Shown one piece after another: positions 3,992 to 62,919 of a DNA stretch of 64,000 nucleotides (position 1 is its first letter; every line of letters starts with the position of its first letter). A program made the translations under genes and the position numbers. The stretch is from a virus: positions 1 to 64,000 of the IMG/VR virus record IMGVR_UViG_3300028581_000028. The stretch is one strand, 5' to 3'. Below the pieces are notes generated by a model. The model was not told the DNA's origin and searched no databases. It saw only the letters and a program-made list of their open reading frames with translations.

Positions 3992-5938
3992 TTATTGCCA
4001 TACGTTTTTATCTGTAGCCTCGTTATTTACCCCAGTAGCACCCTTCCAAATAGTCATATTATCAGAAGTGTTCAAGTAAGCGGTTAATAGGGTTGAACCC
4101 ACATTAGCAACCGAGTGATTGGCGATAATATCACCAGCCAATGCCACTGCTACGGGAGTAAATACAAACTGAAGCGTATTTCCGACTACTGTATTATCTG
4201 GCATAAATATGTGGGGAATTACTCCACCCAATCCTACGATATTGTTTATGTTTTTACCCGTTGAATTAAGGCATTTAAACTCCCCAATAAAAGATGTATC
4301 GGCTGGGAGTGTTAAAACACCCAAAGCATAAATTAAAGGATCGTTTAAATCTAAAGTATATTGCCAGTTGCTATAACTATGCCTTACGCATCTTTTTGTA
4401 TATACTACCGATACGATTTTAATATATACAAAAAAGTCTGATATATCACAATTCTCAACCTCTCCAGTTAGCGTTATACTATCCGACTCAAAGATAGCTT
4501 TGTGTTTTAATCGGTTCATTATAAAATTTCCGTTAACCGATACGTTTATCTGTACCTTAGACTGCCCGATTAAATTATTATAAGTAACATCTCCGCCACC
4601 AGCAATAGAACCTACCGTTAAAATAGAAGACTCTACAATCGTATTGTTTTCTACAAATCTTCCGTTTGAGGTTGTTGTATTTATTAAAAGTGAACTTCCA
4701 TTCCCAGCCACGTAATTGAATCTTACGCTACCCCTTGTATCGTTTAATCGTATTGCACCACCAGAATTTATTAAATTAAACGATACAATTCCAGCTCCTA
4801 TCGCCCCACCGCTATATGTATCGTCTTCAAGTAGTCCATCGTGTATAATATTAGAATCAAAATTCACGACACTATTTCTGCAATTCATAATACAACTACC
4901 AACCAGCTTATTTTTTGTAACAACATCTCTACCCCATTGAAAAAATAAAAGGGAGTTGAGTAATCCACGAATAAATAAGTCGACCTCATTCAACCGTTTA
5001 TCTGCCCGATAAATTATTGTATTGGTAAATACGTTGTATTTAACGAAATCTGTTTCGAGAATATATCCAGTAGTATCGCTTTTTGCCAATACAGACCAGT
5101 TTACTAAGTCGGTATGTGGGGCTGTTCCCCAAGCACCAGTTAAATTAACGTAATGGAGGTTATTCCAGATAACCACATTTCCGATTACTACAGGCTGAAC
5201 ATTAGCCGACCATAAGCCCAGTTGACCAGCAAAGCCAACAACTCCCGTATAAACTCCTACTCCTTGAAAATCGGGGTTCAAAAACAATCCAGCACCTTGT
5301 ATAGATACGGAGTTGTTTGTTACACCTTGAATAACGACACCCAAGTCTGCAAATGAGTTATCGGTTATTTTATAAAATTGTCCTTTAACTACAGTAAAGC
5401 CAGATATCAATGCCAACATTTGTGCATTTGTTAGCGTTACAATAGAAGCACCATCAATAGTTATTACGGTTGCATTATTTATCGCATCATCCGAAGCAAC
5501 AACTCCAGCACCAACAAAATTTAATCTTAACCGTTGCGGTAATGCCAAGCCCTCGTCTTGTATAACGTGTCCAGCTACACCGCCACCGCCACCAGCAGTT
5601 ACACTATACTGCCCAATATAATTAGTATCGCTTGTAACACGCACCACAAAACTTGATGCGTTTGCGGTCATTACATAACTCGATACCCCGTTAATTAAAA
5701 AGCCAAGAGGGGCATCAATAGTGATGTTGTTTATAGAAGCATTATTGCTTTTGTCTACAATATATAATTTCCATTGGGTACTCCATTTTCCTTGAGGTAT
5801 TCCAAGCAATTGAATACCAACCGCACCAGCAGAAGTATCACATAAAAGAACACTATCGTCTTGGCGAACAAGGTTAACCAGCCCGATAATCGTTCTTATG
5901 TTATTCCCGTATTTTTGTTCAAATAAGTTGGTAGCCAT
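3992..5938 (-). CDS. Receptor-binding spike / beta-helix fibre protein
   Basis: A 648-residue protein, the largest in the virion block. Residues about 1-180 hold beta-rich domains and a linker typical of phage fibres (QDEGLALPQRLRLNFVGAG, then DDAINNATVITIDG). The middle part (about 320-500) has many short Asn- and Val-rich rungs such as FNYVAGNGSSLL and NNTIVESSILTV, consistent with a right-handed parallel beta-helix. The C-terminus is a further beta domain. Its likely role is host recognition, possibly with glycan cleavage. No catalytic residues can be assigned by eye. Confidence 0.75.
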   Translation of the reverse strand: MATNLFEQKYGNNIRTIIGLVNLVRQDDSVLLCDTSAGAVGIQLLGIPQGKWSTQWKLYIVDKSNNASINNITIDAPLGFLINGVSSYVMTANASSFVVRVTSDTNYIGQYSVTAGGGGGVAGHVIQDEGLALPQRLRLNFVGAGVVASDDAINNATVITIDGASIVTLTNAQMLALISGFTVVKGQFYKITDNSFADLGVVIQGVTNNSVSIQGAGLFLNPDFQGVGVYTGVVGFAGQLGLWSANVQPVVIGNVVIWNNLHYVNLTGAWGTAPHTDLVNWSVLAKSDTTGYILETDFVKYNVFTNTIIYRADKRLNEVDLFIRGLLNSLLFFQWGRDVVTKNKLVGSCIMNCRNSVVNFDSNIIHDGLLEDDTYSGGAIGAGIVSFNLINSGGAIRLNDTRGSVRFNYVAGNGSSLLINTTTSNGRFVENNTIVESSILTVGSIAGGGDVTYNNLIGQSKVQINVSVNGNFIMNRLKHKAIFESDSITLTGEVENCDISDFFVYIKIVSVVYTKRCVRHSYSNWQYTLDLNDPLIYALGVLTLPADTSFIGEFKCLNSTGKNINNIVGLGGVIPHIFMPDNTVVGNTLQFVFTPVAVALAGDIIANHSVANVGSTLLTAYLNTSDNMTIWKGATGVNNEATDKNVWQ

Positions 5939-5940
5939 TC

Positions 5941-7146
5941 TTATAATAATTTTTTGCTTGTCCTTGCTTCGTTAAAAAACAACTTTCTTAAATCTCTCTG
6001 CTCGTAGAAAAACGCAAATGTCACCGTATTCCCAGCGAGTACCTTATATTCGAGTACATCCATCCCATTAGGAATAAATGGTCGGTTTAGGTTACAGTCG
6101 ATATTAAAAAATACAATATCGTTTGCAACCTGCATATTATCCACTTGTAATTGCAACTGGATTGGATCGATTTTTTGTTTACCCTCAGAGTTTTTATTTT
6201 TAAAAATCAAGGGTTGGTTTATTTGTTGTTGAAGCGTTGCTCCAGCAAAAGTAAACTTAGCATTCGGGATGTGCATTGGGTTACCGAGTATGTTAAACAT
6301 AACATCAGAATAACTCACCAACCCCCCAGCTACTTGTATTTTGTTGTTTAAATTTCCAGATGTAGAGTATAAATAATCAAGAGGCATAGATGGGTTAAAT
6401 AACTCAACTACAAAGTCTAATGCCGAGTTGTTATTCATTGTAAAGATTAACTCTTTTAGCTTTTTACCTTTGTAGTACCCAACATTTTTTACGTTCAAAG
6501 AACATTTATCGCCCTTTAATATCATATCGTCCAGTCCTTGAACGATCACGGTTTGATCTCTTGGTACAAGAACCCTCTGAAGAGTTTTTGAGTTTTTGCC
6601 CTTGCCAACTAATTTTGCACGTCCCCCAACCAATCGTCCACTATCATCCACCATCCCAACTCCAACCTTTTTTGTCAAAGGCTTTCTTGTTTTTGGGCGA
6701 ACTTGCATTGGTCTGCTTAAGGCTGGGTTTTTTTTGCGAAGTATCGGCTGGTTACCAACGGGTACTCCTCTGCGGACTGTTTTTATGGCTACATTGCCAG
6801 TTTTCCTTCGAACCTTGCCCTTCTTTGCAGTCCGATTAACACGTCTTAGCGAAGTTTTAAAGTCGCCTTTAAACTGGCTAAAATCGATATCTAAAATATA
6901 ATCATCAGGGTTTTCGTCCTCGCTACCATCGTAAACCTCTTCGTTATCATCATCGGCTACTTGTTGGTCGCCCCCTGCATCGTAATATTCTTCATCGCCC
7001 TCTGCCTCAAAATACCTTTCTCCGCCTTGTTCTATGACAAAAGCATCATCCCCACTCTCTACTTCGCTTTGAGAGGCGATGCCATCATTAAGAAAATCAT
7101 CAAAAATGTCTTCTTGGTAAGGGTTATATGTATTTGTATCTGCCAT
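5941..7146 (-). CDS. Beta-rich structural protein, candidate second capsid protein
   Basis: A 401-residue protein in three parts. The first (1-95) is acidic and disordered, with FEAEGDEEYYDAGG at about 46-58. The second (about 100-195) is strongly basic (KKGKVRRKTG, RKKNPALSRP). The third (about 205-401) is beta-rich, with alternating hydrophobic strands such as ELIFTMNNNSALDFVVEL and VTFAFFYEQRDL. The last part has the size of one jelly-roll domain. It lies 3 nt from the spike gene. It could be a capsid, penton or spike-base protein; the AEG at 48-50 may mark removal of the acidic leader. Confidence 0.6.
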   Translation of the reverse strand: MADTNTYNPYQEDIFDDFLNDGIASQSEVESGDDAFVIEQGGERYFEAEGDEEYYDAGGDQQVADDDNEEVYDGSEDENPDDYILDIDFSQFKGDFKTSLRRVNRTAKKGKVRRKTGNVAIKTVRRGVPVGNQPILRKKNPALSRPMQVRPKTRKPLTKKVGVGMVDDSGRLVGGRAKLVGKGKNSKTLQRVLVPRDQTVIVQGLDDMILKGDKCSLNVKNVGYYKGKKLKELIFTMNNNSALDFVVELFNPSMPLDYLYSTSGNLNNKIQVAGGLVSYSDVMFNILGNPMHIPNAKFTFAGATLQQQINQPLIFKNKNSEGKQKIDPIQLQLQVDNMQVANDIVFFNIDCNLNRPFIPNGMDVLEYKVLAGNTVTFAFFYEQRDLRKLFFNEARTSKKLL

Positions 7147-7149
7147 ATT

Positions 7150-7935
7150 TTACATTAATTGAGCATATTCTTGATTTTCAAACCGTTTAATGTAGTCATT
7201 AATTTTTCGCATCCTTGCTATATTTTCGTCTGTTTGTGCCTTTAAAAACACATTTGCAAAAACACATATAGCATCTATTTTTGAAAAACCGCTTCCTAAA
7301 TATAGATATAAAGCATTAATGTCTGCACCCGTCTCGTGTCCTATTTGTAAGCCGATCTTCGGGTTTTTCCATTTGTGACAATACTCGTGAAGTACGATGA
7401 TAAACCTCATCGGGATTGTGTAGGGTACAAAACGATAAGCACTCGCTTCGATAAGACCAGTAGAATGCCCAATTCTTGCTGGGGTGCTTAACGGAGCTTT
7501 AGACATAAAGTCTCTTATGACGGGGAAGTATTTTATATTAAATCTCGCATCGGGACTCTGGTAAATAGTGCCATTTTGTTTTGGCTTTTCAAATCCACAT
7601 TTTTGCGAAAAGCTAATATCTAACTGCATAAACTCTTTTGTACCCTCGTCCAGCCAGATATTAAATTTCCTTAATGGTACTTCTTCGACTTTCATTTCGA
7701 AGCTTTCATCTCTCGTATCAACCGCATTAAAACAACCGATAAGTATTCTTTTTGGAGTGACTGGGAGTGAAAAATAAATCATCCTCGATCCATCAACAAC
7801 TATCTCCCTATCCGCATATTTACTATTATTACGAGCAACCTCTTGTACCCAGACACGAAACTTTTTCTTGCCACTACAGTTAATAGTGACATTCAACCTC
7901 ATCTCTCTGTTATTGCTTTCGTGTATTGCAAACAT
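7150..7935 (-). CDS. Putative zinc metallopeptidase in the virion block
   Basis: A 261-residue protein. HEYCH at residues 183-187 sits in a hydrophobic helix (FIIVLHEYCHKW) and is followed by GHETGADINAL at 199-209. HExxH plus a downstream Glu and an Asp-containing helix is the usual zincin metal site (His183, Glu184, His187, probably Glu201). The N-terminal 140 residues are beta-rich and unrecognised. It is encoded between structural genes, so it is a candidate maturation protease acting on virion proteins. The substrate is not known. Confidence 0.65.
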   Translation of the reverse strand: MFAIHESNNREMRLNVTINCSGKKKFRVWVQEVARNNSKYADREIVVDGSRMIYFSLPVTPKRILIGCFNAVDTRDESFEMKVEEVPLRKFNIWLDEGTKEFMQLDISFSQKCGFEKPKQNGTIYQSPDARFNIKYFPVIRDFMSKAPLSTPARIGHSTGLIEASAYRFVPYTIPMRFIIVLHEYCHKWKNPKIGLQIGHETGADINALYLYLGSGFSKIDAICVFANVFLKAQTDENIARMRKINDYIKRFENQEYAQLM

Positions 7936-7957
7936 TACTGTTTATTTTTTTTTGTTA

Positions 7958-8584
7958 TTATTTTGCTACTGCTGGGGCTGGTGTGCTTGGCTTTTTAGTT
8001 GCAAAGTAGATAATTGCACCTACTACTACAACGATCCCAACTCCTATTGCGATTTTAACTCCAGTACTCATTCCTTTTTTAGCAGTTGGATCTTCTGCTG
8101 GGGCATTTGTTGATACAAGGTCTGCCTCAGATGATTGTCCTCCACCACCGCCTCCGCCCATATTTAAGCCGAGTAATTCGCCCAGTTTATCAATTAAACC
8201 AGATTCCTTTGCTTTACCCCATACACCTTTGGCTTTATCCCAGTAATATCCTTTAGCTTTTTTCTCCTTAATTTCTTTTTCAGAAGGGGTGCTGGAACTT
8301 GTTCCGCTTTCAAATGCTGGTTTACCAGTTATATTGCCACCAGAGGAGGCTACTCCGCCAAGAGCAGTCCAAAATTTCTCAAAGTCTGCTCCGTAAGTTT
8401 TATAAGCCTTTTTAGATTTTGCTCCGTATTTACCATCGACCTTAAGGTTTGCACCTTTAGAGTTTGCAAAAATATGAAATTGTTTTACTTGTGCAGAATT
8501 CTCGCCATCAATATTTAAGTAGAAATCTTGGTAGTTCTCTCTTTTCTTATTGATAATAACTGGATATGCGGTTGTTATTTTCAT
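7958..8584 (-). CDS. Virion-type protein: PG-binding-like domain plus KGMSTG membrane anchor
   Basis: A 208-residue protein. The N-terminus MKITTAYPVI is shared with the 117-437 protein. Residues about 33-68 match the PG_binding_1 pattern (VKQFHIFANSKG, then LKVDGKYGAKSKKAYKTYGAD). A Gly/Ser-rich linker follows, with a run of seven glycines, and then the anchor KKGMSTGVKIAIGVG with one membrane helix (about 178-197). The domain probably faces the cell wall and the tail holds the protein in the virion membrane. Function is inferred from domain pattern and context. Confidence 0.75.
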   Translation of the reverse strand: MKITTAYPVIINKKRENYQDFYLNIDGENSAQVKQFHIFANSKGANLKVDGKYGAKSKKAYKTYGADFEKFWTALGGVASSGGNITGKPAFESGTSSSTPSEKEIKEKKAKGYYWDKAKGVWGKAKESGLIDKLGELLGLNMGGGGGGGQSSEADLVSTNAPAEDPTAKKGMSTGVKIAIGVGIVVVVGAIIYFATKKPSTPAPAVAK

Positions 8585-8612
8585 TGTATTTTTGTTTTTT
8601 TAGATTTCATTT

Positions 8613-9485
8613 TTATAAACCACCAACTGAATATTTAAAGCCAGTTTTATTTATATTTCCGCCCATTTTAAACTGTACCTCATCTCTTGAGTTTTCGACC
8701 ACCTCGCCAGTATTTACATAATTAAAATCAACATCGGCTTTTTTCCCAATTTTAGCAATGCCTCGTTTTTTTGCTACTGCAAGGTTTGGTGCGTAAACGT
8801 AAGTATATAGCTGGTCTGGTTTGTTTTTTCCAAAGACATTAAAAATCGTTTGTCCTACATAAGATTTGGGTACAAGACTTTGAGTTGTTTTATCTATAAT
8901 AAGCTCCTCGCCCTTTAATATTTCCAGTACAGCGTTTATGTCGTTGCGATCAACTCTGTTTTCGTGAATAAACTTCATTATACTGTATGCCTTCCGAAAT
9001 TTATCAGCCTTGTGATATGCCTCAACCTCAACTGTAAACCTTGTAAAAGAATAACTATTATCAACTCCAGTATAATATTGAATTTCGCCAAGTTGTTCGA
9101 AATAATTAGCATTCGGTCTCTCCTCTAAAAAGAACCGTATGGTTGCGTAAGGGTTATTGCTTCCAGATGGGCTAAATAGTAAATAAAAGAGTTTTTTACC
9201 GCCTAAAACACCGCCTCTGACATATTTATCGTAATGTCCCTCAACGTAAGTGTCAATAGTCCAGCCCTTCTCCTCAAATTTATTAATTAAAGCAGTTTCC
9301 ATATCGGTATCGTTCTCGAAAGATGTTTCTAACTGGCTTAACGATAACTCGGTGTAAGCATTCCACAAGTCTTTAATATTAGCACTCTTATCGTCAAAAA
9401 CAAACCCAAACATATCGACCATTTTGCTAACAATTGCAAAAAACTCGTTATCGGTCAATGTTAATATTTTGGTTTTTACTCCCAT
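8613..9485 (-). CDS. Hypothetical soluble protein in the virion block
   Basis: A 290-residue protein that I do not recognise. It has mixed alpha/beta composition, no membrane segment and a glycine-rich end (GGNINKTGFKYSVGGL). Visible segments include an N-terminal helix pair, a beta-rich centre (YATIRFFLEERPNANYF) and a basic stretch (AVAKKRGIAKIGKKAD). It lies between two membrane-anchored structural genes, 2 nt from the 9487 gene. A structural or assembly role is plausible only from position. Confidence 0.75.
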   Translation of the reverse strand: MGVKTKILTLTDNEFFAIVSKMVDMFGFVFDDKSANIKDLWNAYTELSLSQLETSFENDTDMETALINKFEEKGWTIDTYVEGHYDKYVRGGVLGGKKLFYLLFSPSGSNNPYATIRFFLEERPNANYFEQLGEIQYYTGVDNSYSFTRFTVEVEAYHKADKFRKAYSIMKFIHENRVDRNDINAVLEILKGEELIIDKTTQSLVPKSYVGQTIFNVFGKNKPDQLYTYVYAPNLAVAKKRGIAKIGKKADVDFNYVNTGEVVENSRDEVQFKMGGNINKTGFKYSVGGL

Positions 9486-9486
9486 T

Positions 9487-9978
9487 TTATTTTTTACTAA
9501 ATCTGAATACTAAATAAGCACCCAGTAAAGCCCCAGCAACTGCTCCAATGATTTTATTTTTTTGGGTAGGCAATGCGATCCAACCTTTCTTTTCGGCAAA
9601 GTACACGCCAGCGAAGCCAACTATTCCGCCAACGATAACTGCGTCCAAGTATTTTACATTGTCTTTGGATGTTTTAGACGATTTTGTTTTGTCTACAGTA
9701 ACCTTAACTTTACTCTCAGACTGACTATCACCCTCCGCATTGCTGATACCAGTACCAGCGTTAATGTCCTTTGTAATGATTTGTTTTACGCAAGATAAAG
9801 GCACTACAACCACCCCTTTGTATAACACAAAGGCTGGTTTACCTTTTGAATCTTTAAGCTCACCGCTAATAATTTCTCCTTTTTTAAAGACCTTTGCTTT
9901 AATTTGCGTTGGTCTATGAGGCATCCCAGTAGATACAACATAGGGAGATTTAAAGTCTTTTGTTGCTACAAAGTCCAT
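9487..9978 (-). CDS. Two-membrane-segment virion-type protein with SNAEG motif
   Basis: A 163-residue protein. A beta-rich N-terminal domain (1-70) is followed by a linker with SNAEG at 79-83 and a Ser/Lys-rich stretch. Two hydrophobic segments come last (about 109-127 and 141-159; VIVGGIVGFAGVYFAE and IIGAVAGALLGAYLVF). The layout matches the 12090-12563 protein, so the two are probably distant paralogues. Its start codon overlaps the stop of the 35-residue gene upstream (TAATG), which suggests translational coupling. Confidence 0.75.
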   Translation of the reverse strand: MDFVATKDFKSPYVVSTGMPHRPTQIKAKVFKKGEIISGELKDSKGKPAFVLYKGVVVVPLSCVKQIITKDINAGTGISNAEGDSQSESKVKVTVDKTKSSKTSKDNVKYLDAVIVGGIVGFAGVYFAEKKGWIALPTQKNKIIGAVAGALLGAYLVFRFSKK

Positions 9979-10085
9979 TATTTCTTAATTTTTACTTTTT
10001 TTATTTCTTTTTTCGACTTCTTGTATTGGCTATAAACCAATATTCCGATGCCGATAATCACAAGTACTCCAAGAACCTTTTTCAT
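9978..10085 (-). CDS. Tiny single-pass membrane protein (35 aa)
   Basis: A 35-codon frame from the ATG at 10085 to the TAA that overlaps the next gene's start. One hydrophobic segment (MKKVLGVLVIIGIGILVY) is followed by a lysine-rich tail (KKSKKEIKKVKIKK). This is the same hydrophobic-plus-basic design as the anchors of neighbouring virion proteins. The tight fit between flanking genes (2 nt and a 1-nt overlap) supports it as real. A minor virion membrane protein is likely. Confidence 0.65.
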   Translation of the reverse strand: MKKVLGVLVIIGIGILVYSQYKKSKKEIKKVKIKK

Positions 10086-10087
10086 AG

Positions 10088-10813
10088 CTACTTTTTCTTT
10101 TTAATAGCATAAACAACACCAACAATAAGTGCTATTGCGACCAGACTCCCTACAACTATTAACACGGTTTTGGTTGTTTTGGCTTTACGTTCATTGGCTT
10201 TAGCAATCTCTTCTTGTTTGGCTTTTTTCTGTTCCATTATTTGCTGGATCATCTGCCTCTTTGCCTCTTGTTGTTTTGCCAGAGTTTCGCTACTCCCAAA
10301 CTTTTTCATTTTTTGGGTGTCCATTATTTTGTTGGCGATACCACCACCAACTTCTAATAAACTGCCAATCAGTCCTCCACCAGCATAATAAAACTCGTCA
10401 TCTGATTCGCCATCGGCATCTAAGTAGTCCTCGTTCACAGTATCACTCGTATCATCGTATTGATTTGCATCAAAATATTCGTACATTACCTTATAGGTAG
10501 CCTTCATCCCCGAATCGTTAATTGCGGATTCTCCATCAGCTCCAACGACTTGATTTTTATGGCTGATAAGAAAAGATGCCCCCAGCAATAAGTTACGATT
10601 GCTGGGTGCATTATCTATAAAGGCATTAACAAGCTGGATATCGGATGCGTTATCGGGTACTGGGATATTTGCATTTCTCAATACTTCGATAAAGTCCGAT
10701 TTATCTTTAATAAGATAAATCGCCAATTCACGCATAATAACCCTATTGGCTTTCTGCGTATCTCGGCTTTTTATATATTTGGCGAGTTCGCCAAAAAACT
10801 TGCTATTATCCAC
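10088..10813 (-). CDS. Virion-type protein with C-terminal membrane anchor
   Basis: A 241-residue protein. The N-terminal helical domain is about 95 residues. A linker contains two ADGES motifs (in VVGADGES and LDADGES) and an acidic stretch ending in FYYAGGGLIG. Then come a Lys/Gln/Glu-rich helix (about 175-212) and one membrane segment (about 217-236) with a KKKK tail. The N-terminal domain has the same rough length and helical character as that of the 12570-13220 protein. A structural membrane protein is inferred. Confidence 0.75.
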   Translation of the reverse strand: MDNSKFFGELAKYIKSRDTQKANRVIMRELAIYLIKDKSDFIEVLRNANIPVPDNASDIQLVNAFIDNAPSNRNLLLGASFLISHKNQVVGADGESAINDSGMKATYKVMYEYFDANQYDDTSDTVNEDYLDADGESDDEFYYAGGGLIGSLLEVGGGIANKIMDTQKMKKFGSSETLAKQQEAKRQMIQQIMEQKKAKQEEIAKANERKAKTTKTVLIVVGSLVAIALIVGVVYAIKKKK

Positions 10814-10817
10814 CTTA

Positions 10818-12068
10818 TTATTTTTTCTTTAGTACATACTTATTAATCAACACAATTGCTACTACACCAATTGCTACACCAATGGCTATTTTAACACCAG
10901 TCGACATACCCTTCTTTTTGCCTTCGGCATTCGAGAAGTTTAAGTCAAATTTGCGACTTGCTGGTGCATCGTAATCGTCTTTATCATCGATCCCTATATA
11001 TCCAGTATCTCCGTTTACACCATTAGATTCCTCTGCTGGTATAACGATTGAGTCTTGTGCAATATCTGGGTTTAATTCTGCATCAACTGGAGTTTCTGAT
11101 CCGCCTTCGGAACGCTTTTGTGCCAATTTTCTTGCTGGTGCGTTTGCTAAAGCTACCTTCATACGATCACGTTTAGCCAAGCGTTTAGCTTTTCTAATTT
11201 CACGTCTGCTGTTTCTTTCTGCTTTGCCACGACCTCTTGCACTTGAATAACCCTGCAGTTTTTCTTCCAACATCTTAACACGGGCATTGCGAGTTGCAAT
11301 CTGCTTTCTAAGGCTTTCTTTCATTGGTTCGCTTTTAGCGTTTGCCAATTTAAGAGTAAGGCGTTGGATATATTCTTTTTGCCATTCGATCTTTTTAGTT
11401 ATTTCTTTTACCGTAGGATGTATTTTTTGTTTCACGCCATCCACGTTCAAGAAATAATCTTCAGCACCGCCAAGTTCAGATGTGAAGGAGTCTTCAGCAC
11501 CATTAAATTCGTTGGTCGGATCAAATACTGCCCCGCCATCAAATCCAGATTCCTCTTCGTATCCGCCTTCATCAGCGTAACCTTCTTCTCCGCCTTTTTC
11601 TTCATAGCCTTCTTCTTCAGCGTAGCCTTCTTCTCCGCCTTGATCCTCAACATATCCGCCACCCTGATCTTCAGCATAACCACCGCCCTGATCTTCAGCA
11701 TAACCGCCCTGATCTTCAGCATAACCGCCCTGTTCTTCCATTAACGGTTCTTCTTCTTCCCCCATAGCTTTACGAGCTAATTTGCGAGTTTTTCTTGTAT
11801 CTTTTTGGGTTTGTTTTGCTTCGAGACGATTTGCTCTCATCCCTTGTCGTGTGGCTTGTTTATCGGCTCTACGAGAAAGCCGATTCGATGCCCTTGTCCT
11901 TTTTCTTTCATCACGTCTTTGGATTCGTTCCATTCTGCGTTTTTGCCTTCTGGCACGTCCACGTCCCCTCGCTTGTGAGAACTCACCAAATGCTTCCTCG
12001 AAAGTAGCAACTTGGATCGAGTTATCGCCAGTATTACGGGGAGATAGTGTAATAATTGTTGGCTTCAT
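10818..12068 (-). CDS. Repeat-rich, highly charged virion-type protein with KGMSTG anchor
   Basis: A 416-residue protein. It has two basic modules (about 31-105 and 277-310) that both begin with ARGRG. An acidic region lies between them, made of imperfect GGYAEDQ repeats (about 110-180). The C-terminus carries SNAEG (379-383), then KKKGMSTGVKIAIGVAIG, one membrane helix and a KKK end. The alternating basic and acidic blocks suggest binding of packaged DNA or a scaffold-like role inside the particle, tethered to a membrane. No known family is recognised. Confidence 0.75.
   Translation of the reverse strand: MKPTIITLSPRNTGDNSIQVATFEEAFGEFSQARGRGRARRQKRRMERIQRRDERKRTRASNRLSRRADKQATRQGMRANRLEAKQTQKDTRKTRKLARKAMGEEEEPLMEEQGGYAEDQGGYAEDQGGGYAEDQGGGYVEDQGGEEGYAEEEGYEEKGGEEGYADEGGYEEESGFDGGAVFDPTNEFNGAEDSFTSELGGAEDYFLNVDGVKQKIHPTVKEITKKIEWQKEYIQRLTLKLANAKSEPMKESLRKQIATRNARVKMLEEKLQGYSSARGRGKAERNSRREIRKAKRLAKRDRMKVALANAPARKLAQKRSEGGSETPVDAELNPDIAQDSIVIPAEESNGVNGDTGYIGIDDKDDYDAPASRKFDLNFSNAEGKKKGMSTGVKIAIGVAIGVVAIVLINKYVLKKK
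11630..11745. repeat. Imperfect 21/24-bp coding repeats (GGYAEDQ units)
   Basis: Tandem units of about 21 or 24 bp containing CTGATCTTCAGCATA on the plus strand encode repeated AEDQGGY or AEDQGGGY peptides in the 10818-12068 gene. At least four units are clear and further degenerate ones (EEGYAEEEGYEE) extend to about 11560. Unit number may vary between relatives because of replication slippage. Confidence 0.75.
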
Positions 12069-12089
12069 ATTTTAATATTTAAGGTTAAA

Positions 12090-12563
12090 TTATTTGCTTG
12101 GAGCTATTTTAACACTTTGGTGTTTGTCTACATAAGTGCCAAACAAAAATCCTGCAACTGCAACAACTGATGTCACCATTGCGGTCTTGCCACCTTTGTA
12201 TTTTTTGTATTTAGAAAATCCGAAACCGATACCAGCTCCGATTAATCCATAAATTACAGCATTTTTAGTAAATATTCTCTTGTGCATTGGGATATTTACT
12301 ACCGTTGCAGACTGCTGGGCATCTGCTCCTAAAGTTACTTCAGTTACTTCCATTGGTTTGATTTTTTTAAAATATATTAATTGTTTATCCTTCGTTGCAA
12401 ATAGTTTGTAAGTAAATTTTAGACCTCTTCTTTTGCCCTCTACCAGTTTTATATCGCCATCTAATTGAGTACCCTTCTTAATGATTTTATCACTCTCGGT
12501 AAAATTATGATGTTCTAAATTTGGTATAAGAACTTCAGCGTCCTCGATCAATTCTACTTTCAT
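12090..12563 (-). CDS. Two-membrane-segment virion-type protein
   Basis: A 157-residue protein. A beta-rich N-terminal domain (about 1-75) is followed by a linker and two Gly/Ala-rich hydrophobic segments (about 99-117 and 127-145; VIYGLIGAGIGFGF and VVAVAGFLFGTYV). The overall plan matches the protein at 9487, including a KKG turn in the N-terminal domain, so they look like diverged paralogues. It lacks the SNAEG motif but has a similarly placed LGADAQQ. A virion membrane protein is inferred. Confidence 0.7.
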   Translation of the reverse strand: MKVELIEDAEVLIPNLEHHNFTESDKIIKKGTQLDGDIKLVEGKRRGLKFTYKLFATKDKQLIYFKKIKPMEVTEVTLGADAQQSATVVNIPMHKRIFTKNAVIYGLIGAGIGFGFSKYKKYKGGKTAMVTSVVAVAGFLFGTYVDKHQSVKIAPSK

Positions 12564-12569
12564 ATCTTG

Positions 12570-13220
12570 TTATCTGTTTGTTTTTAAATACAACACCATC
12601 CCAAATATTGCGACTACGCTAACAATTCCAAGTACTACAACTGTTTCCGTTGCAATTCTTTGTACTGGGATACTTTGTTCGCTACCTCCCTCTGCATTAG
12701 AGTATGTAGCATTTTTTGAACATCCGCCACAATTTGAACATCCGCCACTACAGTTTGACATTGTTTGTTTTCTGTAAGGGCAATTTGGACGTTTTTGGTA
12801 ATTTGGGTTACCATCCATATTTATATATCTTTTACAATAAGGGCAATTGGGATTTCCGCAAGGGGGATGTCCTTCGAATTCTGCCCAGCCTTCGTGTAAA
12901 ACAGTTTCCTTTAAAACCTTGTTTTGCTCATCCGTTTTTATTGGTTCTGGATTAGACTGTAGCGGTTCAACCTTAACTTTAGGATTGTTGTATTTTAATA
13001 TAAATTCCTTATGCGGATGAATCTCCGCAAATTCTTTTTCCAAGTCGATCTTGGCTGGGGACGAAGCATAAAGTTTGGCTAACTTAATCTCCAAATCCTT
13101 AACATCCGTTGCGTTAAGCCCCGTATGTTTTTTTAATAAACCCTTTGCTTTATCGGTTGAGGCATTTGCCAGTACCGAGAGAAGCGTTGAATATTCAGAC
13201 TTTTTCCTTTTATCATTCAT
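12570..13220 (-). CDS. Cysteine-rich virion-type protein with C-terminal membrane segment
   Basis: A 216-residue protein. A helical N-terminal domain spans about 1-78. A cysteine-rich region at about 121-167 has PCGNPNCPYCK and CSGGCSNCGGC, which could bind metal or form disulphides. SNAEG follows at 174-178 and one membrane helix at about 190-211. The gene begins just after the terminator that ends the small capsid-candidate unit, so it is probably expressed from a different promoter or by read-through. The role is unknown. Confidence 0.75.
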   Translation of the reverse strand: MNDKRKKSEYSTLLSVLANASTDKAKGLLKKHTGLNATDVKDLEIKLAKLYASSPAKIDLEKEFAEIHPHKEFILKYNNPKVKVEPLQSNPEPIKTDEQNKVLKETVLHEGWAEFEGHPPCGNPNCPYCKRYINMDGNPNYQKRPNCPYRKQTMSNCSGGCSNCGGCSKNATYSNAEGGSEQSIPVQRIATETVVVLGIVSVVAIFGMVLYLKTNR

Positions 13221-13247
13221 TACGTTTATCCTTTAAAAGTTTTTTAA

Positions 13248-13278
13248 AAAAGGGATAAGGCATAACCCTATCCCTTTT
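13248..13278 (-). terminator. Intrinsic terminator after the small capsid-candidate gene
   Basis: A ten-base-pair stem (AAAAGGGATA / TATCCCTTTT, with inner GG/CC pairs) encloses a short loop. On the minus strand it is followed by TTTTTT. It lies 26 nt after the stop of the 13304-14056 gene and before the next gene, so it should end that transcript. It is the clearest rho-independent terminator in the window. Confidence 0.75.
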
Positions 13279-13303
13279 ATTTATAGGAAAATCCAGTAAT
13301 GAA

Positions 13304-14056
13304 TTAGCTCCTCGAGATGCCTTTTACATCCTGAGTTGTCTGGATAATAACTGGAGCTACGTTTTTACCGCTTAAGCGTGGGGCTCTTGCGGAGTTAATC
13401 GATGATCCTCCGTTCAGTTTAGCTTTTCCGCTAATAACTGAGATTGGGAACATAGAGATTGTAAGTAATGCACCAGCTAAGAGGTTAAAGGTTAAATAAG
13501 TGTTTCCATCAACTGTAACAGGCTTGGTAACATCGATGATGTCTGGCTGTTGTTGATAAGCGTCACGCATAATACTTAAATTCAACGGGGTTGAATAAGT
13601 TTTACCGTTTGCATCAACGTGGTTGATATTAACAGTTACTTGTAACTGGGCAGGGGTTGTACATTGAAATCTCCATTTGCCAATTTTGAAGAATTTGTTA
13701 TTTGACTGGGCGAGTAAACGACCATAAGTACCGCCTTGTAAGTTGGTCAATACGATACCAACGGGGTTTCCGTACTGGGGTCCAGCTCCAAACCAATCGT
13801 TGTAGCCAAATAATACTGCGATTAAAGCACCTACGGTTGTGTTTTCGTAAGAAACAACATAAGGATCGGATACGACTTGAGGTCTTCCACTTGCAAATGA
13901 CATATCGTCACCATCGATTAAAGACATATCGTCTCCATCAAAGTTGTCCATATCATCAAAATAAGCGAAATCACCCTCGTTATCGTATGAATCGATACCA
14001 GACATTCTTTCTGTACCGTTAATTGCTAATAGCAATTCTTTTTCTTTTGCTTTCAT
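13304..14056 (-). CDS. Candidate major capsid protein (beta-rich, possible jelly-roll)
   Basis: A 250-residue protein. An acidic N-terminal leader has DNEGDF at 25-30 and two DGDDMS repeats (about 41-54). A beta-rich core of about 180 residues follows, with strands such as GKWRFQCTTPAQLQVTVNI and a hydrophobic end (LLTISMFPISVI). A basic Arg/Lys-containing tail completes it. The core fits one jelly-roll. It has its own promoter and terminator, as expected for a very abundant protein. The capsid assignment is inference from size, composition and isolated expression; no sequence family is recognised. Confidence 0.5.
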   Translation of the reverse strand: MKAKEKELLLAINGTERMSGIDSYDNEGDFAYFDDMDNFDGDDMSLIDGDDMSFASGRPQVVSDPYVVSYENTTVGALIAVLFGYNDWFGAGPQYGNPVGIVLTNLQGGTYGRLLAQSNNKFFKIGKWRFQCTTPAQLQVTVNINHVDANGKTYSTPLNLSIMRDAYQQQPDIIDVTKPVTVDGNTYLTFNLLAGALLTISMFPISVISGKAKLNGGSSINSARAPRLSGKNVAPVIIQTTQDVKGISRS

Positions 14057-14208: not shown

Positions 14209-14331
14209 CTACTTTTTTACTTCGGCTTTTTTAACAAGCATCGGAGCAACAAATTTCTGATGAACTGCTAATGCTACCATTACGATAACCAGCGTAGTTG
14301 CCATCTTTTTTAAATTGTCTGTTGAGAACAT
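14209..14331 (-). CDS. Small single-pass membrane protein (40 aa)
   Basis: A 40-codon gene from ATG (14331) to TAG. One hydrophobic segment covers about residues 9-23 (MATTLVIVMVALAVH) and the end is basic (LVKKAEVKK). It is the first gene after the promoter at 14372-14402 and so shares a transcript with the capsid candidate. A small hydrophobic protein co-expressed with a capsid protein fits an abundant virion membrane or assembly protein. Confidence 0.6.
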   Translation of the reverse strand: MFSTDNLKKMATTLVIVMVALAVHQKFVAPMLVKKAEVKK

Positions 14332-17743: not shown

Positions 17744-18607
17744 CTAAACTTTATTTCCGTAATATTGTTGTGCATATTGTTTTGTCAGACCTTGCATAGC
17801 ATCCTCAATCGGACAACCGTGCATATCTTTGTACTCACGCAAATACTTTTTATTGGTATTTAGATACTGTTTACACGCATCATCAAATTCCTTTCGGGTA
17901 AATTTGCCCTCGATTTTATTTGCAAAATTGTGTATGTAAACAAAAAACCGCTTGTCGCCACCGAAGTATCTGTTATTAACGATTAACTGGGCTATTTTAA
18001 ATAATGTAGGGTTACTTACTTTGCCCTTAATATCGTTTACGTTATCTGCTTGGTAATGCATCCTTACCCAGCGACTATTTTGCCAAATTCTCGGTTCTAC
18101 TGGTCTTAAAGACTGGTACGAAATCAAAACATCAACTGCACGATGCCTTAAGTTTACAATACCACCAACGATCTCTTCCATGAAGGTAACTGATAGGATG
18201 TAGGTGTTTATATCCTCCAGTACAAGCATACCGTTTTTGTAAATCTTTAACAAGTACTCTACCGCCTCTTTCTTTTCTTTAATACCCAAGTTTTTAGCAT
18301 CAATCCTTCGGCATTCTATAATATCCGAGTGACACCATTTTTCCACATCTGACAAAGCGATCCTTCGTACCTCGAAATTCTCGATATCGTTTTTCGCAAA
18401 TTGTTCTTTTGTGTACTCCCCATTGGTGTCGAAAATTAAACATTTTCTACCCTTTACTTTATTATAAAACTTATCCTTAACGTACTCTCGGATAACGTAC
18501 ATATTAAGATAGGTTTTTCCGACTCCTTGTATCCCCGTACAAGTCATCATACCAGCCTCTCTTGTGCCGACTGGCTTTATTTTATTCATTACTTCTTTCG
18601 ACTGCAT
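17744..18607 (-). CDS. HerA/FtsK-type genome-packaging ATPase candidate
   Basis: A 287-residue P-loop ATPase. Walker A is GIQGVGKT at 25-32 and Walker B is MLVLED at 127-132. Arg154 and Arg156 lie in NLRHRAVD and a sensor-like Gln165 in ISYQS, which is the HerA/FtsK clade layout. It lacks the nuclease and large-terminase signatures. The size fits the packaging ATPases of PRD1-, PM2- and sphaerolipovirus-type membrane phages; a Zot-like or plasmid-transfer ATPase is the main alternative. Its place in the virion block supports packaging. Confidence 0.75.
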   Translation of the reverse strand: MQSKEVMNKIKPVGTREAGMMTCTGIQGVGKTYLNMYVIREYVKDKFYNKVKGRKCLIFDTNGEYTKEQFAKNDIENFEVRRIALSDVEKWCHSDIIECRRIDAKNLGIKEKKEAVEYLLKIYKNGMLVLEDINTYILSVTFMEEIVGGIVNLRHRAVDVLISYQSLRPVEPRIWQNSRWVRMHYQADNVNDIKGKVSNPTLFKIAQLIVNNRYFGGDKRFFVYIHNFANKIEGKFTRKEFDDACKQYLNTNKKYLREYKDMHGCPIEDAMQGLTKQYAQQYYGNKV

Positions 18608-18611
18608 AATT

Positions 18612-19805
18612 TTAAGATGTTGTCGCTAAAGATGTTGTATCCGCATTATTGTTTTCGCCTCCCCCAGCTTCGCCCTCTCCCCCAGCTTCATCGGTTTTAG
18701 TTGCTGGATTCTCGTGATCGGTCTGTTCCTCTTCGTGATATTCTTGGGATTGCGTATTCCGTTGCTCCATTTTCATCTCTTTGAGCTGGGTAATTACGTT
18801 TTGAATTTGTTGTCCCATTGCGTAAGCCTTAACTCCCAGCCCGATTACGATTGTAGTCACTGCGTTGATTATAAGCTCTTGCATTGGCGTTGGTGCAATG
18901 CCCTTTTCAAGCATTACTTCATATAAGCTATCAGCCAAGTCATCCTCATCCATTTGGCTTATCTTAAACGATTCGTCTGCCAGTCTAACTTGACTTTTAA
19001 ACCATTGTTTAACTGTAGCGGTTTGGTTGTCCTCAAGAGTTAAAAGGATTTTTAAATCGATTGTATCCTGTAGTTCGTATTCGATTAATTTATCATCCGT
19101 GATATCTTTGGTAACCCACCAAATACAGCCCATCTCGGATAATTTACAGACCGCCCTTACAATAGTCTTGGCAAACTTTTTGGTGCTTTTGCGTTTTTTC
19201 TTTTCGTCCATACTATCGAATTCTGGATTAACTGGATCGGGCTTAGAGTCCTTCTCTTTTTTATCCTTGTTATTCCCCGATCCCGATCCGCCTCCGCCCT
19301 TCTTTCCGCCATCGCTTTTGCCCTCGTCCTTTGGCATTTCGAAGCTCTCCCCAAATGTTGTTGGCTCGTTAAAATTGGTTTGACCAGTATTGCTTGACTT
19401 TTCGCCCTCCCGTTGCATTCCAGTATCCATCACGTAATCTCGTACTATTGGAGCTTCACGGTTTAAAGGATCAATATCAGACGAATAAGTATCATCGTGT
19501 TCGGTTTCTTCACCACCGCCACCGTTGTCTGTATTGTGTTCTTTCTCGCTGGATGATTCGCTGGTTTTCTCTTCCGTGTTTTGTTCTGTTTTAGTACCCT
19601 CTGCCTTTGATCCAACTTCCTCGAAATGTGTTTCATCAATAGTATATTCATCATACAATTTTTGCAACTCTCCAAAATTGGTCGCTGGATGAAATTTATC
19701 GAGATTTATACCCTTTTTTTCAAGTGCATCTTGTATCGCCTTAATGTACTTTCTCTCCTTGTAGTTAAGGTTTCCTTTTTTAACATAAATCCTTGAGTTC
19801 GACAT
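18612..19805 (-). CDS. Charged membrane protein sharing an N-terminal module with the 23448 gene
   Basis: A 397-residue protein. Residues 1-55 (SRIYVKKGNLNYKERKYIK, then NFGEL) closely match an internal segment of the protein at 23448-24548. An acidic, Gly/Ser-rich linker follows, with KAEGTKTE at about 67-74. Then come a folded middle domain (about 205-300), one hydrophobic segment (about 310-328) and a disordered C-terminus. It lies 4 nt upstream of the packaging ATPase. A membrane-linked assembly or vertex function is inferred only. Confidence 0.65.
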   Translation of the reverse strand: MSNSRIYVKKGNLNYKERKYIKAIQDALEKKGINLDKFHPATNFGELQKLYDEYTIDETHFEEVGSKAEGTKTEQNTEEKTSESSSEKEHNTDNGGGGEETEHDDTYSSDIDPLNREAPIVRDYVMDTGMQREGEKSSNTGQTNFNEPTTFGESFEMPKDEGKSDGGKKGGGGSGSGNNKDKKEKDSKPDPVNPEFDSMDEKKKRKSTKKFAKTIVRAVCKLSEMGCIWWVTKDITDDKLIEYELQDTIDLKILLTLEDNQTATVKQWFKSQVRLADESFKISQMDEDDLADSLYEVMLEKGIAPTPMQELIINAVTTIVIGLGVKAYAMGQQIQNVITQLKEMKMEQRNTQSQEYHEEEQTDHENPATKTDEAGGEGEAGGGENNNADTTSLATTS

Positions 19806-23447: not shown

Positions 23448-24548
23448 TTATTCAAAATCGGTTGCTTGAACATCTACCTTTGCGGATACCTTTGCGACTA
23501 TCTTGGCTATATAAACACCATCGGATGGGAATACGCATTGTCTGGCAAATTCCTTCGCTTTATCTATGTCTAAGCAAGTCATTAATATTACCCCCTTTTC
23601 AAGTACAACATACTGGTGACCATCTTTGCCAAGTGTTTCTGGCTTACTTAATCCATTTTTAACCTCATCTGTAAAACTGGGTTCTTTTTCAAACTTTACT
23701 TTTTTAGTTCTACTCCGTGCAATAGATTTACTGTTTTGCTGGGCTTCGGCTACAAATTCCATCGAGTCTTGCTTTATTAAGGCTTCGACACAATTAATCT
23801 GCTTATCCTCAGTTTCGTAAATACGTTTAACGGTAATCTTATCGTGTAGCTCGACTAATTCTTTAAAGTTATTTGCTGGTTTTAAACGATGAAGGTTATA
23901 ATTATTCTTTGCGAGTGCATATTTTATGTCTTTAATATACTGCCTTTCTTTATAATTAAAATTGCCCTTTTTAGTATAAATCTGGGAGTTTGTAGTCATC
24001 TTTTTATTAGTTGAAGCCTCCCTTATGTTATCAAATATTTTTTTTGCCCTAATGGTGCTAATCGAGTCAACCCGTGATTTGTACGTTGCTTGTGCAATTC
24101 TTTTAATGTACCCCAGCCTTATTGCGTAAGTAAGCACCGCCTTGTTTACTTTGTATTTTGCGATAATAGAGTCTTGTACAGATGAGGCAATGTATCCACC
24201 GTTATCCAGCATTAAAATAATAAAATCGTTGAGGCATTCTTTAATATCATCAACCCTTTTCCCGTAGGTTTCTTTGTTGTGTGTACGCTTCGGCTTCATT
24301 GCGTATGCCTTTTGGCTCTCCTCGAAGTTATCTGCGATTGGGGGTGCAAAATCTTCGCCCTCTGGAGTTATTACATAAAGCCCGATTTTTTCTCTGCGTA
24401 GCAACCCCTTGTTTTTCATCTCAAATAGTAGGGTGTTTGCATAACTACTGCTTGATTTGAGTACTTTTTGGACTACGGTTGCGTTAATAGTCTTTTTTGG
24501 CTGACTACGAATGTAGAGGACTACTTTTTCTGCGTTTTCTTTGTTCAT
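23448..24548 (-). CDS. Winged-helix protein carrying the shared NYKER module
   Basis: A 366-residue protein in two parts. Residues 1-60 look like a winged helix (VVLYIRSQPKKTINATVVQ, then LLFEMKNKGLLRREKIGLYVI), and a second helical domain follows to about 180. From residue 184 (MTTNSQIYTKKGNFNYKER) a module matches the N-terminus of the 18612 protein. An internal ATG there could give a shorter product. The C-terminus holds a small mixed domain. The role is unknown; DNA binding is likely for the first part. Confidence 0.6.
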   Translation of the reverse strand: MNKENAEKVVLYIRSQPKKTINATVVQKVLKSSSSYANTLLFEMKNKGLLRREKIGLYVITPEGEDFAPPIADNFEESQKAYAMKPKRTHNKETYGKRVDDIKECLNDFIILMLDNGGYIASSVQDSIIAKYKVNKAVLTYAIRLGYIKRIAQATYKSRVDSISTIRAKKIFDNIREASTNKKMTTNSQIYTKKGNFNYKERQYIKDIKYALAKNNYNLHRLKPANNFKELVELHDKITVKRIYETEDKQINCVEALIKQDSMEFVAEAQQNSKSIARSRTKKVKFEKEPSFTDEVKNGLSKPETLGKDGHQYVVLEKGVILMTCLDIDKAKEFARQCVFPSDGVYIAKIVAKVSAKVDVQATDFE

Positions 24549-29480: not shown

Positions 29481-32400
29481 TTATTTTTTAGATTCCATTT
29501 TTTCACGAATCAACTTAAACGTATTATAATAAGGTTCAACCGAATTTATGGTAAAATTGGTATAATCGCCACCGCTTAATTCTCCGATTATGTTTTTACC
29601 TTCTTTTATTTTAACCGTATAATTATTAAACGAACTCATCGTATATTCTCTTTCTCCATTACGAGATGCCCTATCATCATCGGACATATAATCACGAATA
29701 TACTCATTCTTTGTGCTGGTCTTTAATTTGCGATATATTTGAGTAAACACCCATAATCTGCGTAACCTCTCGCCCAGCCTTTTATCATCGGTCATTGCCT
29801 CTCGATCTGTAGCAAATACAGTACTCCGTTTAGCTTGTTTGTAAACGGAATCCCGATTATCTATGCCAAATTGCTTTAACAAATCGGCTATACTTATTTT
29901 ACTGGCTTTTTTAATCAGCTTTTCGATATGTTCGGGGCTATCTTTTGTTGGCTTTGGCTTATCGCTGGGAGTTGCTTTTTTGCGAACAACCTCAGTTGGA
30001 GGAAGCCCGTTTTTAGCCCGTAATTTATTGACCGCCCTACGAACATCCTCGTAGTATTCTTTAGATACAAATTTATTACCCTCTCTGCCAGTAGCCAAAA
30101 CAACCTCTAATTCAGCAATTCTGGTTAATGCCTTTTCCTTATTTTTATCTGTAGAAGCACCGCTTGTTTCTGGTTTTGTTTCGGCTGGTTTATCCGTACC
30201 CTTTACTCCTTTTTTAAGAATTGGCACTTCGGTTTTTAAGGCTATTTTATGTGCCTCTTCATAGCTCATATTTTCGTAAACCATTAACTCGAACTCAGTA
30301 AGCTCGTGCTTAATAGTAGCCTCTCTGCCAACCGCATCCAAGTCTTGATCGATCCAAATTTCGTTTTTGGGAATAAATTCGTAATCGCTTGATACAAAAT
30401 GGTGACCGCCCATCGTAAAGTCTGGGTAGTGTTTTAAATTAACATAGTTTCTGTTTACAGAATAAATGTAAACCTTTTTATTTCTGATTGGAACTACTTT
30501 AATAAGTACGGTATTTAGTCCATCTTCGGGCTTTGGGGTTTTCGTTTTTAAAACCTCAACAAACCATTTATTTTTATCGGGAATATATTCAAACCCTACT
30601 TGTTCGGCTAATTCTTTTAAATTACTGTAAGTTTTTCCACCGTAAGTAAATCCGCCATCGGCTTGTGTAACAACCCCATAATATTCTTTTAAATAATTAC
30701 GCAATTGGTTGGCGGTATACCATTTGCCTTCCGCATTTTCTTCTGGTTCGCCATCCTTTTCGCTTTGGGCTGATGCCTCGCTGGGCTTTTGCTCTGGCTT
30801 TTTAGTTGGCTTTTCTGGAGTTGGAGGAACTGCATCTGTAAGGTCGTTCAGTTTTTTAACAAATATCAGCATATTTAAAAACTGGGTGTCCTCCTCCTTG
30901 TTTTCTTTAGGGAAGAATATTTTATCAAGTGCAGTATTTACGATCTCGATGTTTTTATCCATCAATTTACGGTCTACAGTTATATCATAGTTTAAATCTT
31001 CTGAGAATTTTTGTTTTACTAAATAGCATAAAAATAATTTACAAAAGACTTCTTCGACTCCGCCAAGTTCCTTAATTGTATTTGGATCGATTCCTACCGC
31101 AATGGCATCGTTTATGGCTGGTCTTCCAATAAGGTCTGCTATAATATGCCCAAGCTCGTGCAATAACGGTTCTGGTGTTGTAGATTCGAATAAGTGAATT
31201 GTGTACTTGCCATCTTCCGCCAACTCGATTGCACCATCTGGCTTATTGGTAGGGATGCCATCAAGCTCAAAATCATCAAAAATAACTGATACTTTATCGT
31301 CATCGATTGACTCGGATGTCATTGGCAATAAGTACCCAGCAAGTTCAACTTCCGACTTTGAGCTTTTTTGAACCTCCCTTGATTCTACCTCGCCAAGAAG
31401 TGCCTCGTATGTATTAAAAAATATATTTGATACTTGTTGCTCCGTATAGCCTTGTCCCAGCATCCTATTGGCAATAACTCCAGCGTCCCTCATATATCCA
31501 AAAACCGTATCCATTTGTTTTAACATAACATCACCGAAGTACTTGTTAAGGCTATCGAGTTTTGCATTATCCAGCTTTTTTAACACCACCATCATATTAG
31601 CGTTCAAGTGCAACTCCATTAAGCCATCAACGACCATTTTAGTATTTTCGTAATATGCTTTATCGTTATCGGGCTTGTACATTAACTCAACCGCCATTTG
31701 TCCGAACTTGGCAAAACAGTCTTCCAGTATTACATTGTATTTTTCAGCACTATAAAGCCCTCCGCTTTTAGCATTTCTGGTATATATGTCTATGATATTT
31801 TTTAAAACGTAGAAGTATTTTTTAATATTCTCGCCACCGATTGCTTGGATCATTTTTGCGAGAAATTGATTGCCACCAGTACCAAATCCCTCAATGCGTT
31901 GGATTGCGTGTTGTACCTCGTGAAGTAATACCGTTTTTAAATCATATAATTTGGGATTGCCAAATATCATTATATAATTTAACTCTGGGTTGTAATAAAA
32001 CGAGTACATCTTGCTATCTGTAGTCGCAAAAAATATTGGCAAATTAAATAATTTGGGATAATGCTTGTAAAGTGTTGGGTGTTGAAGAATATCGCTTAAA
32101 TATGTATCCCAGCCCAATTTTAAATACTCCTCCATTAGCTTTGTAGCCAATTTCCCAGCGTCTTTTGTGGGTACTAATTTTAGTATATTATAAATTTTCG
32201 TTGGGTTGTCATTAACATCAAATCGGCTTCCGTGTTTAAAATAAACATTTGGGGTGTCGTAACTTGGAATAGTCATATCTGCATCCAAAATCGGCTTCCG
32301 CCATTTATAATCAAAGCGATTAAAGTACCAGCCAGTCTTTGCATAAATATCGCTGATAGATAACTTATTTCTATACATATCCTTTGCCTCTTGTAGTTGG

Positions 32401-62235: not shown

Positions 62236-62919
62236 TTATCCGAATAACGTTCCTTGACTTTGCATCCCAGCGAGTCGCTTTGCTCCAGCATTAAACCACT
62301 TGGGATCAAGTTCAGTCCCGATAAACTTTCTGCCCTCTTTATGACAAGCGACTGCAGTACTAAAGCTCCCCAAAAAACCATCAAATACCATATCGCCTTT
62401 ATTACTGCTATGTAGAATAATCCTACGGATTACATTATAATCTTTTTCGTGTGGATGGCTATTGACATCGTGTTGAACGTGATTCATTTTCCAGACGTTG
62501 CTTACATCATTGGAGTTGTACTTTGCCTTGCCCTTTTCGAGTACTAAACAGACCTCGTATTGATTTCTGAAACCATATCCCATCCCGATATTGTTTTTTA
62601 CTAAAATGCAAAGCATACGGTAATTAAATCCGTGTGCAATAGCATACTCTTTTATTTGGAAACAAAACTTGTGATTGCTGAATAAATAAAGACTGGTATC
62701 GTTTTTCATTTTCGGAAGTATTGCGTCCAAAAAACGATAATTGATACTCTCATCCTCGTTATTTAAAATCTCTTTAGAGTCCCTTCCATACCCGATTCCA
62801 TCCCCGTAAGGAGGATCAACGATTACGAGGTCAAGGCACTCGTTTGGCATTACCGCAATTAAGTCAAAGCAATCTGCTTGGAATACGGTGTTTTCTTTAA
62901 ATTCTATTTTATTTTCCAT
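62236..62919 (-). CDS. Beta-class DNA methyltransferase (DPPY, likely m6A)
   Basis: A 227-residue protein. Motif IV DPPYGDG comes first (DPPY at 35-38) and motif I DGFLGSFST at 180-188 near the end. This is a beta-class order with a DPPY typical of N6-adenine methylation. It is short for the family, with a small recognition region between the motifs. With the TSPPY enzyme at 59077 it gives the element two different base-methylation activities. Confidence 0.85.
   Translation of the reverse strand: MENKIEFKENTVFQADCFDLIAVMPNECLDLVIVDPPYGDGIGYGRDSKEILNNEDESINYRFLDAILPKMKNDTSLYLFSNHKFCFQIKEYAIAHGFNYRMLCILVKNNIGMGYGFRNQYEVCLVLEKGKAKYNSNDVSNVWKMNHVQHDVNSHPHEKDYNVIRRIILHSSNKGDMVFDGFLGSFSTAVACHKEGRKFIGTELDPKWFNAGAKRLAGMQSQGTLFG

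Follow-up and report, generated by a model that had tools for sequence, protein, structure and literature searches.

A predicted major capsid protein of the single jelly-roll type and its diverged paralogue in a group of large virus contigs

The first 64 kb (the window) of the 84,313-base IMG/VR virus record IMGVR_UViG_3300028581_000028 raises the question of how a virus without a recognizable capsid gene might build its shell. Two open reading frames (ORFs) on the minus strand, P250 (250 aa, 13304–14056) and P401 (401 aa, 5941–7146), encode beta-rich proteins, and a first-pass annotation had suggested that these might be paired single jelly-roll (SJR) capsid proteins that are used together with a HerA/FtsK ATPase, as in P23-77. 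Do both proteins belong to a capsid, and is each of them a major component? The answer that we consider probable is that P250 is the major capsid protein (MCP) of a lineage of tailless SJR viruses, and that P401 is a diverged paralogue of P250 located at the vertices.

Conservation, predicted folds and homology of P250 and P401

IMG/VR searches with P250, P401 and the ATPase encoded upstream of them yielded 14 further contigs of 22–146 kb, and a genome scan added one 5.6-kb contig from a Bacteroidetes metagenome-assembled genome (MAG). Orthologues of P250 were found in 14 contigs (53–72% identity) and orthologues of P401 in 12 contigs (41–52% identity), the P401 gene being present in every contig that covers its region. 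The gene order ATPase (17744)–P250–12570–12090–10818–10088–9487–7150–P401–3992 was conserved in contigs spanning the region, with some genes within it diverged or replaced between contigs. Because the orthologues recur in the same gene order, both ORFs are genuine genes rather than chance frames, conserved and syntenic in 12–14 contigs at the positions first annotated. ATPase orthologues were 54–79% identical, and the ATPase and P250 genes are the best conserved of the cluster.

P250 consists of an N-terminal helix (residues 3–18), an acidic stretch (18–62) that contains SFASG at residues 53–57, and a core (64–210). P401 has a long and disordered leader, which is acidic to about residue 90 and is followed by a conserved DIDFS..G..FK region and a basic stretch, and a core at about residues 221–395. 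The acidic leaders, and the basic leader of the larger protein, were as the first-pass annotation had described them. Its beta-rich cores of 180–200 residues were indeed beta-rich, although they proved to be somewhat smaller. AlphaFold2 (AF2) models were generated from 16 P250-family sequences and 12 P401 sequences. The P250 core was modelled confidently, with ten-residue blocks mostly at a predicted local distance difference test (pLDDT) score of 85–95, as one core only, of about 147 residues and approximately nine strands. The P401 core was of moderate confidence (ten-residue blocks at pLDDT of about 47–87). The order of elements is common to both models: two strands, a short helix, a short strand, a 10-residue helix, a long strand, a short helix, two strands, a short strand and two closing strands.

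In Foldseek searches against the PDB, all 50 of the listed P401 matches were SJR capsid proteins of small icosahedral viruses. The 50 listed P250 matches were all of the jelly-roll class, judged by name; 19 were viral capsids, and the non-capsid matches were CBM, TNF/C1q, cupin, Cry and haemagglutinin jelly-rolls. The class of these matches and the AF2 models point to a single jelly-roll of the kind seen in viral capsids for both cores, which supports the fold originally suggested. The CBM, TNF/C1q and cupin matches of P250 would also fit a reading in which neither protein is a capsid part, for example if a plasmid-like element, rather than a virus, encoded both as adhesins, lectin-like proteins or jelly-roll enzymes. 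We regard this reading as highly improbable, as it is opposed by the all-capsid match list of P401, the lysozyme and HerA-like ATPase genes, the many transmembrane proteins, the extreme codon adaptation of P250 described below, and the finding that tblastn with the ATPase gave no match in 72,556 plasmids.

Neither P250 nor P401 matched Pfam, PHROGs, NCBIfam or PDB sequences, whether single proteins or alignments were used, and tblastn with P250 found no match in 50,697 phage records even at E≤10, in agreement with the initial failure to recognize a family. The proteins named for comparison at that stage, P23-77 VP16/VP17, PM2 P2 and the FLiP capsid protein, showed no significant sequence similarity in hhalign, nor did SH1 VP4/VP7. 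No other major capsid gene was found.

Profile comparisons indicate that P250 and P401 are homologous to each other. In hhalign the two families aligned at E 1e-7 and, when only orthologues were used, at E 4.7e-6 (P250 111–204, P401 279–381), and the aligned stretch comprises predicted elements that correspond between the two models. When 18 cluster families were compared all against all with reversed decoys (best decoy 1e-4), this pair was outranked by two pairs only, the obvious 18612/23448 paralogues and one pair of membrane-segment proteins. A hidden Markov model (HMM) of the P250 orthologues scored six P401s above its best reversed decoy (best 1.7e-7), the P401 HMM scored 13 P250s above its own best reversed decoy, and the P250-family profile matched one P401, that of contig G012, with E 1.3e-9. 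Additional P250-like proteins were found in two contigs. In the 146-kb contig, two tandem diverged paralogues and a glycosyltransferase-like gene lie next to the ATPase gene (L045, G003:103573–105080), and in the other contig one diverged paralogue lies near a DnaB gene (L044, G011:10765–11370).

Codon usage, transcription signals and the roles of the two proteins

Codon usage was measured as the share of C-ending codons among the two-way pyrimidine codons and those of Ile, and genes were ranked within each contig. P250 ranked first in 12 of 14 contigs and second in the other two. Across the 84-kb record it was second of 67 genes, and the top-ranked gene has only 40 informative codons. The codon usage of P401 was unremarkable, ranging from 4th of 17–19 to 17th of 20. 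As controls, the known MCP ranked first or second in phage 11b, PRD1, PM2, FLiP and crAss001, while the PRD1 penton was 11th of 14 and the PM2 penton/spike 4th of 9. Both MCPs of P23-77 ranked high, 2nd and 4th of 20. The measure is uninformative for SH1, the codons of which are saturated with C.

Transcription signals likewise set P250 apart. Its gene is preceded by a leader of 415–725 nt, which in 14 of 14 contigs codes for a single-transmembrane peptide of 33–41 aa with an HQ motif (...VALAVHQKFVAPxL...); in the window we read this from the sequence as the 40-aa peptide MFSTDNLKKMATTLVIVMVALAVHQKFVAPMLVKKAEVKK (14209–14331, minus strand). An intrinsic terminator lies directly 3′ of P250 (13246–13278, minus strand), consisting of a hairpin (−18.8 kcal/mol, z −4.6) and a U run, and a strong terminator was found right after P250 in 12 of the 13 contigs having downstream sequence. 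The P401 gene is inside an operon with gaps of 21 nt or less and without a clear terminator, between an HExxH metallopeptidase gene and a spike-like gene. On the basis of codon usage, transcription signals and gene layout, we assign P250 as the probable MCP and P401 as a penton or other minor shell protein. P250 looks like the sole MCP, and P401 is more likely to be a vertex (penton) protein than a second MCP.

If the virus instead followed a P23-77-type plan, P250 and P401 would both be major capsid proteins. Two SJR-like proteins of unequal size, encoded in one cluster with a HerA-like ATPase and homologous to each other, are consistent with this plan. However, P401 lacks high-expression codon usage and P250 ranks first or second everywhere, whereas both MCPs of P23-77 rank high. 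Moreover, the VP16/VP17 and VP4/VP7 genes are adjacent, whereas about 6 kb and a terminator downstream of P250 separate those of P250 and P401, and neither protein has sequence similarity to known MCPs. This plan appears unlikely to us. Of the original proposal, the SJR cores and the upstream HerA-like ATPase are supported; two co-abundant MCPs are not, as P250 alone carries the codon and transcription signals of an MCP.

A further alternative retains P250 as the MCP and makes P401 a spike base, an attachment fibre or a minor decoration protein with a jelly-roll domain rather than a penton. The position of P401 before a spike-like gene and its long disordered leader would suit such a role, and the extra P250-like paralogues in two contigs imply that the family has non-MCP members. 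However, every one of the 50 listed Foldseek matches of P401 is a capsid SJR and not an attachment jelly-roll, and the gene is present wherever its region is covered, as expected of an essential part of the shell. We judge this alternative to be distinctly improbable.

According to the arrangement that we favour, with P250 as the MCP, P401 would be a diverged P250 paralogue that acts as the vertex (penton) protein and holds the spike, for which the following gene codes. Genome packaging would fall to the HerA-like ATPase encoded upstream, and the HExxH peptidase may process virion proteins by cutting at the [FY]xA[DES]G tag that they share. Several points weigh against this arrangement. The choice between a penton and another minor capsid role for P401 is based on codon usage and gene position, and the first half of the P401 core is without clear sequence similarity to P250. 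The AF2 models were built from 12–16 sequences, with moderate confidence for the P401 core, and the Foldseek matches in the PDB all had E >1e-3 and low TM-scores, with no single strong match. With hhalign, the ATPase showed no detectable homology to the P23-77, SH1 or PM2 packaging ATPases. Finally, no virion has been seen. Our best reading is nevertheless that the contigs represent a previously undescribed lineage of tailless SJR viruses with large genomes (at least 84 kb) and a paralogous MCP and penton.

The surrounding gene cluster

The putative packaging ATPase is a HerA/FtsK-like P-loop protein of 287 aa (17744–18607, minus strand). A DUF87/HerA match was obtained for 12 of its 14 orthologues (best E 3.6e-7), which is weak but consistent, the Walker A motif QGVGKT is invariant, and LEDIN and ISYQS are conserved. 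In hhalign, its similarity to the SH1 and PM2 packaging ATPases ranked first and second among the control proteins and was not significant, and tblastn gave no match in phages. We use the packaging label because of the motifs and the gene position, and the ATPase may thus package the genome. Two proteins, encoded at 23448–24548 and 18612–19805, have a clearly homologous segment in common (hhalign E 2e-41), and one of them is encoded just upstream of the ATPase gene.

The gene directly before P401 in every contig spanning it encodes an HExxH...E metallopeptidase of 261 aa (7150–7935, minus strand, as are the spike-like gene, the five virion-cluster genes and the lysozyme gene described below), a possible virion-maturation protease that had no match in Pfam or NCBIfam. 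Its H183, E184, H187 and E201 are invariant in 13 of 13 sequences. The gene following P401 encodes a protein of 648 aa (3992–5938) that we call spike- or receptor-binding-like because its N-terminal region is conserved and the remainder is variable, as in spikes; several orthologues align over the first 90–165 residues only. Between P250 and the peptidase gene are five syntenic genes for virion-cluster proteins. Those at 12570–13220 (13 contigs) and 10088–10813 (13 contigs) encode proteins with a C-terminal transmembrane segment, as does 10818–12068 (9 contigs), the product of which is charged and repetitive (GMSTGVKIAIGV...), and those at 12090–12563 (13 contigs) and 9487–9978 (12 contigs) encode membrane proteins. 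Downstream of the spike-like gene are a phage lysozyme with a C-terminal transmembrane anchor (1175–1792; PF00959, E 2e-10) and several other membrane-anchored proteins. The many transmembrane proteins of the cluster are only suggestive of an internal membrane. The proteins encoded at 599–1168, 7958–8584 and 10818–12068 end in near-identical membrane anchors (GMSTGxKIxIxVxI...KK) and are otherwise different.

A tag of the form [FY]x(0-2)A[DEGST]G, such as YSNASG, FSNAEG, FSGADG or MSYASG, was enriched in virion-cluster proteins. With this pattern, which was picked after inspecting the window, 57 occurrences were observed in 14 contigs versus 14 expected by shuffling, and 18 versus 7 upstream. 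Sites were present in P250 (residues 53–57, 13886–13900), in many virion-cluster proteins, among them the products of 12570–13220, 10818–12068, 10088–10813 and 599–1168, and in orthologues, often at the junction of a disordered leader with a core or transmembrane segment. The tag is a candidate maturation-cleavage site.

Relation to known viruses

Singelaviria was set up for viruses that have SJR capsid proteins (PMC12714852), and each such virus has two MCPs (PMC8328091). The viruses described here resemble its Halopanivirales (P23-77, SH1, HCIV-1) in having SJR capsid proteins, as predicted from AF2 and a class of Foldseek matches with PDB E-values >1e-3, and probably in the FtsK/HerA class of the ATPase, here with a weak HerA match. 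The HCIV-1 penton VP9 is also a single beta-barrel with an N-terminal helix (PMC6414509). In contrast, the Halopanivirales compared have genomes of 17–31 kb whereas a contig of this lineage is at least 84 kb, and here one strongly expressed MCP candidate is accompanied by a second SJR gene with ordinary codon usage; codon usage and transcription signals point to unequal amounts of the two proteins. Because an adjacent MCP pair, a matching genome size and MCP sequence similarity are all lacking (hhalign against the larger P23-77 and SH1 proteins gave nothing significant), we did not place the lineage in Singelaviria.

PRD1 and PM2 (Bamfordvirae) are alike in having the MCP gene near that of the packaging ATPase, and PRD1 also in its penton gene beside spike/receptor genes and in the codon contrast between a high MCP and its penton. 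Their MCP is a double jelly-roll (DJR), unlike the single core of P250. FLiP (Finnlakeviridae) is a tailless phage of a Bacteroidota host with single-stranded DNA and a DJR MCP; this MCP is among its most codon-adapted genes and, as with the rest of FLiP, no sequence similarity to the lineage was found. FLiP further differs by its 9.2-kb genome, as well as by strand type and capsid fold (PMC5894146). Of the Caudoviricetes hallmarks, the HK97 capsid (PF05065) and large terminase (PF03237) families were absent from 11 records of 48–146 kb in which positive controls were detected; only these two families were searched, and the records may be incomplete. Direct terminal repeats or inverted ends were looked for at the ends of the 84-kb record, and none were found.

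The vertex protein gp24 of T4 arose from the MCP gp23 by gene duplication, so T4 offers a parallel for a vertex protein that is a paralogue of the MCP, although in a tailed phage with the HK97 fold. There is a fair chance that the present viruses form a separate lineage. More tentatively, they may constitute a high-rank lineage of large tailless double-stranded DNA phages (at least 84 kb, one contig being 146 kb) outside Singelaviria, with a big icosahedral lattice of one SJR MCP closed at the vertices by its paralogue, that is, the gp23/gp24 strategy carried out with jelly-rolls. A description of the lineage was not found in the open-access literature searched, and neither reference phage collections nor PHROGs contain it. 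The jelly-roll phages compared here have genomes of 9–31 kb, and prokaryotic DJR viruses are reported at roughly 7–18 kb (PMC5894146), so a lineage whose 50–146 kb contigs lack HK97 capsid and terminase would make this range severalfold wider for tailless prokaryotic viruses. An MCP and a second capsid protein with still recognizable homology would also show directly how one jelly-roll protein came to serve both in the lattice and at the vertices, a matter relevant to the debate over how single and double jelly-roll capsids originated.

The host is possibly a member of the Bacteroidota, the sole hint being the contig in the Bacteroidetes MAG. Upstream of P250, a Bacteroidota-type promoter (TTTG-N-TAnnTTTG) occurs in the window but in no more than a minority of the contigs, and we did not count it as host evidence. 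Elsewhere in the window are genes for a strawberry-notch-type helicase (36003–40607), a MoxR-like AAA ATPase (34688–35992), a DUF7192 protein (33400–34656) and a large polyvalent-type protein (29481–33068). Bacteroides phage BS-TP4 and an Acinetobacter phage record contain distant relatives of the helicase. BS-TP4 was rejected as a capsid relative: it shares most of the helicase, but its annotation includes a portal and a DUF5309-like protein. At least seven DNA methyltransferase-like genes, most of them identified by reading the sequence, are present in the 84-kb record (59077–60345, 62236–62919 and record positions 74607–83485), which suggests that the genome may be heavily modified.

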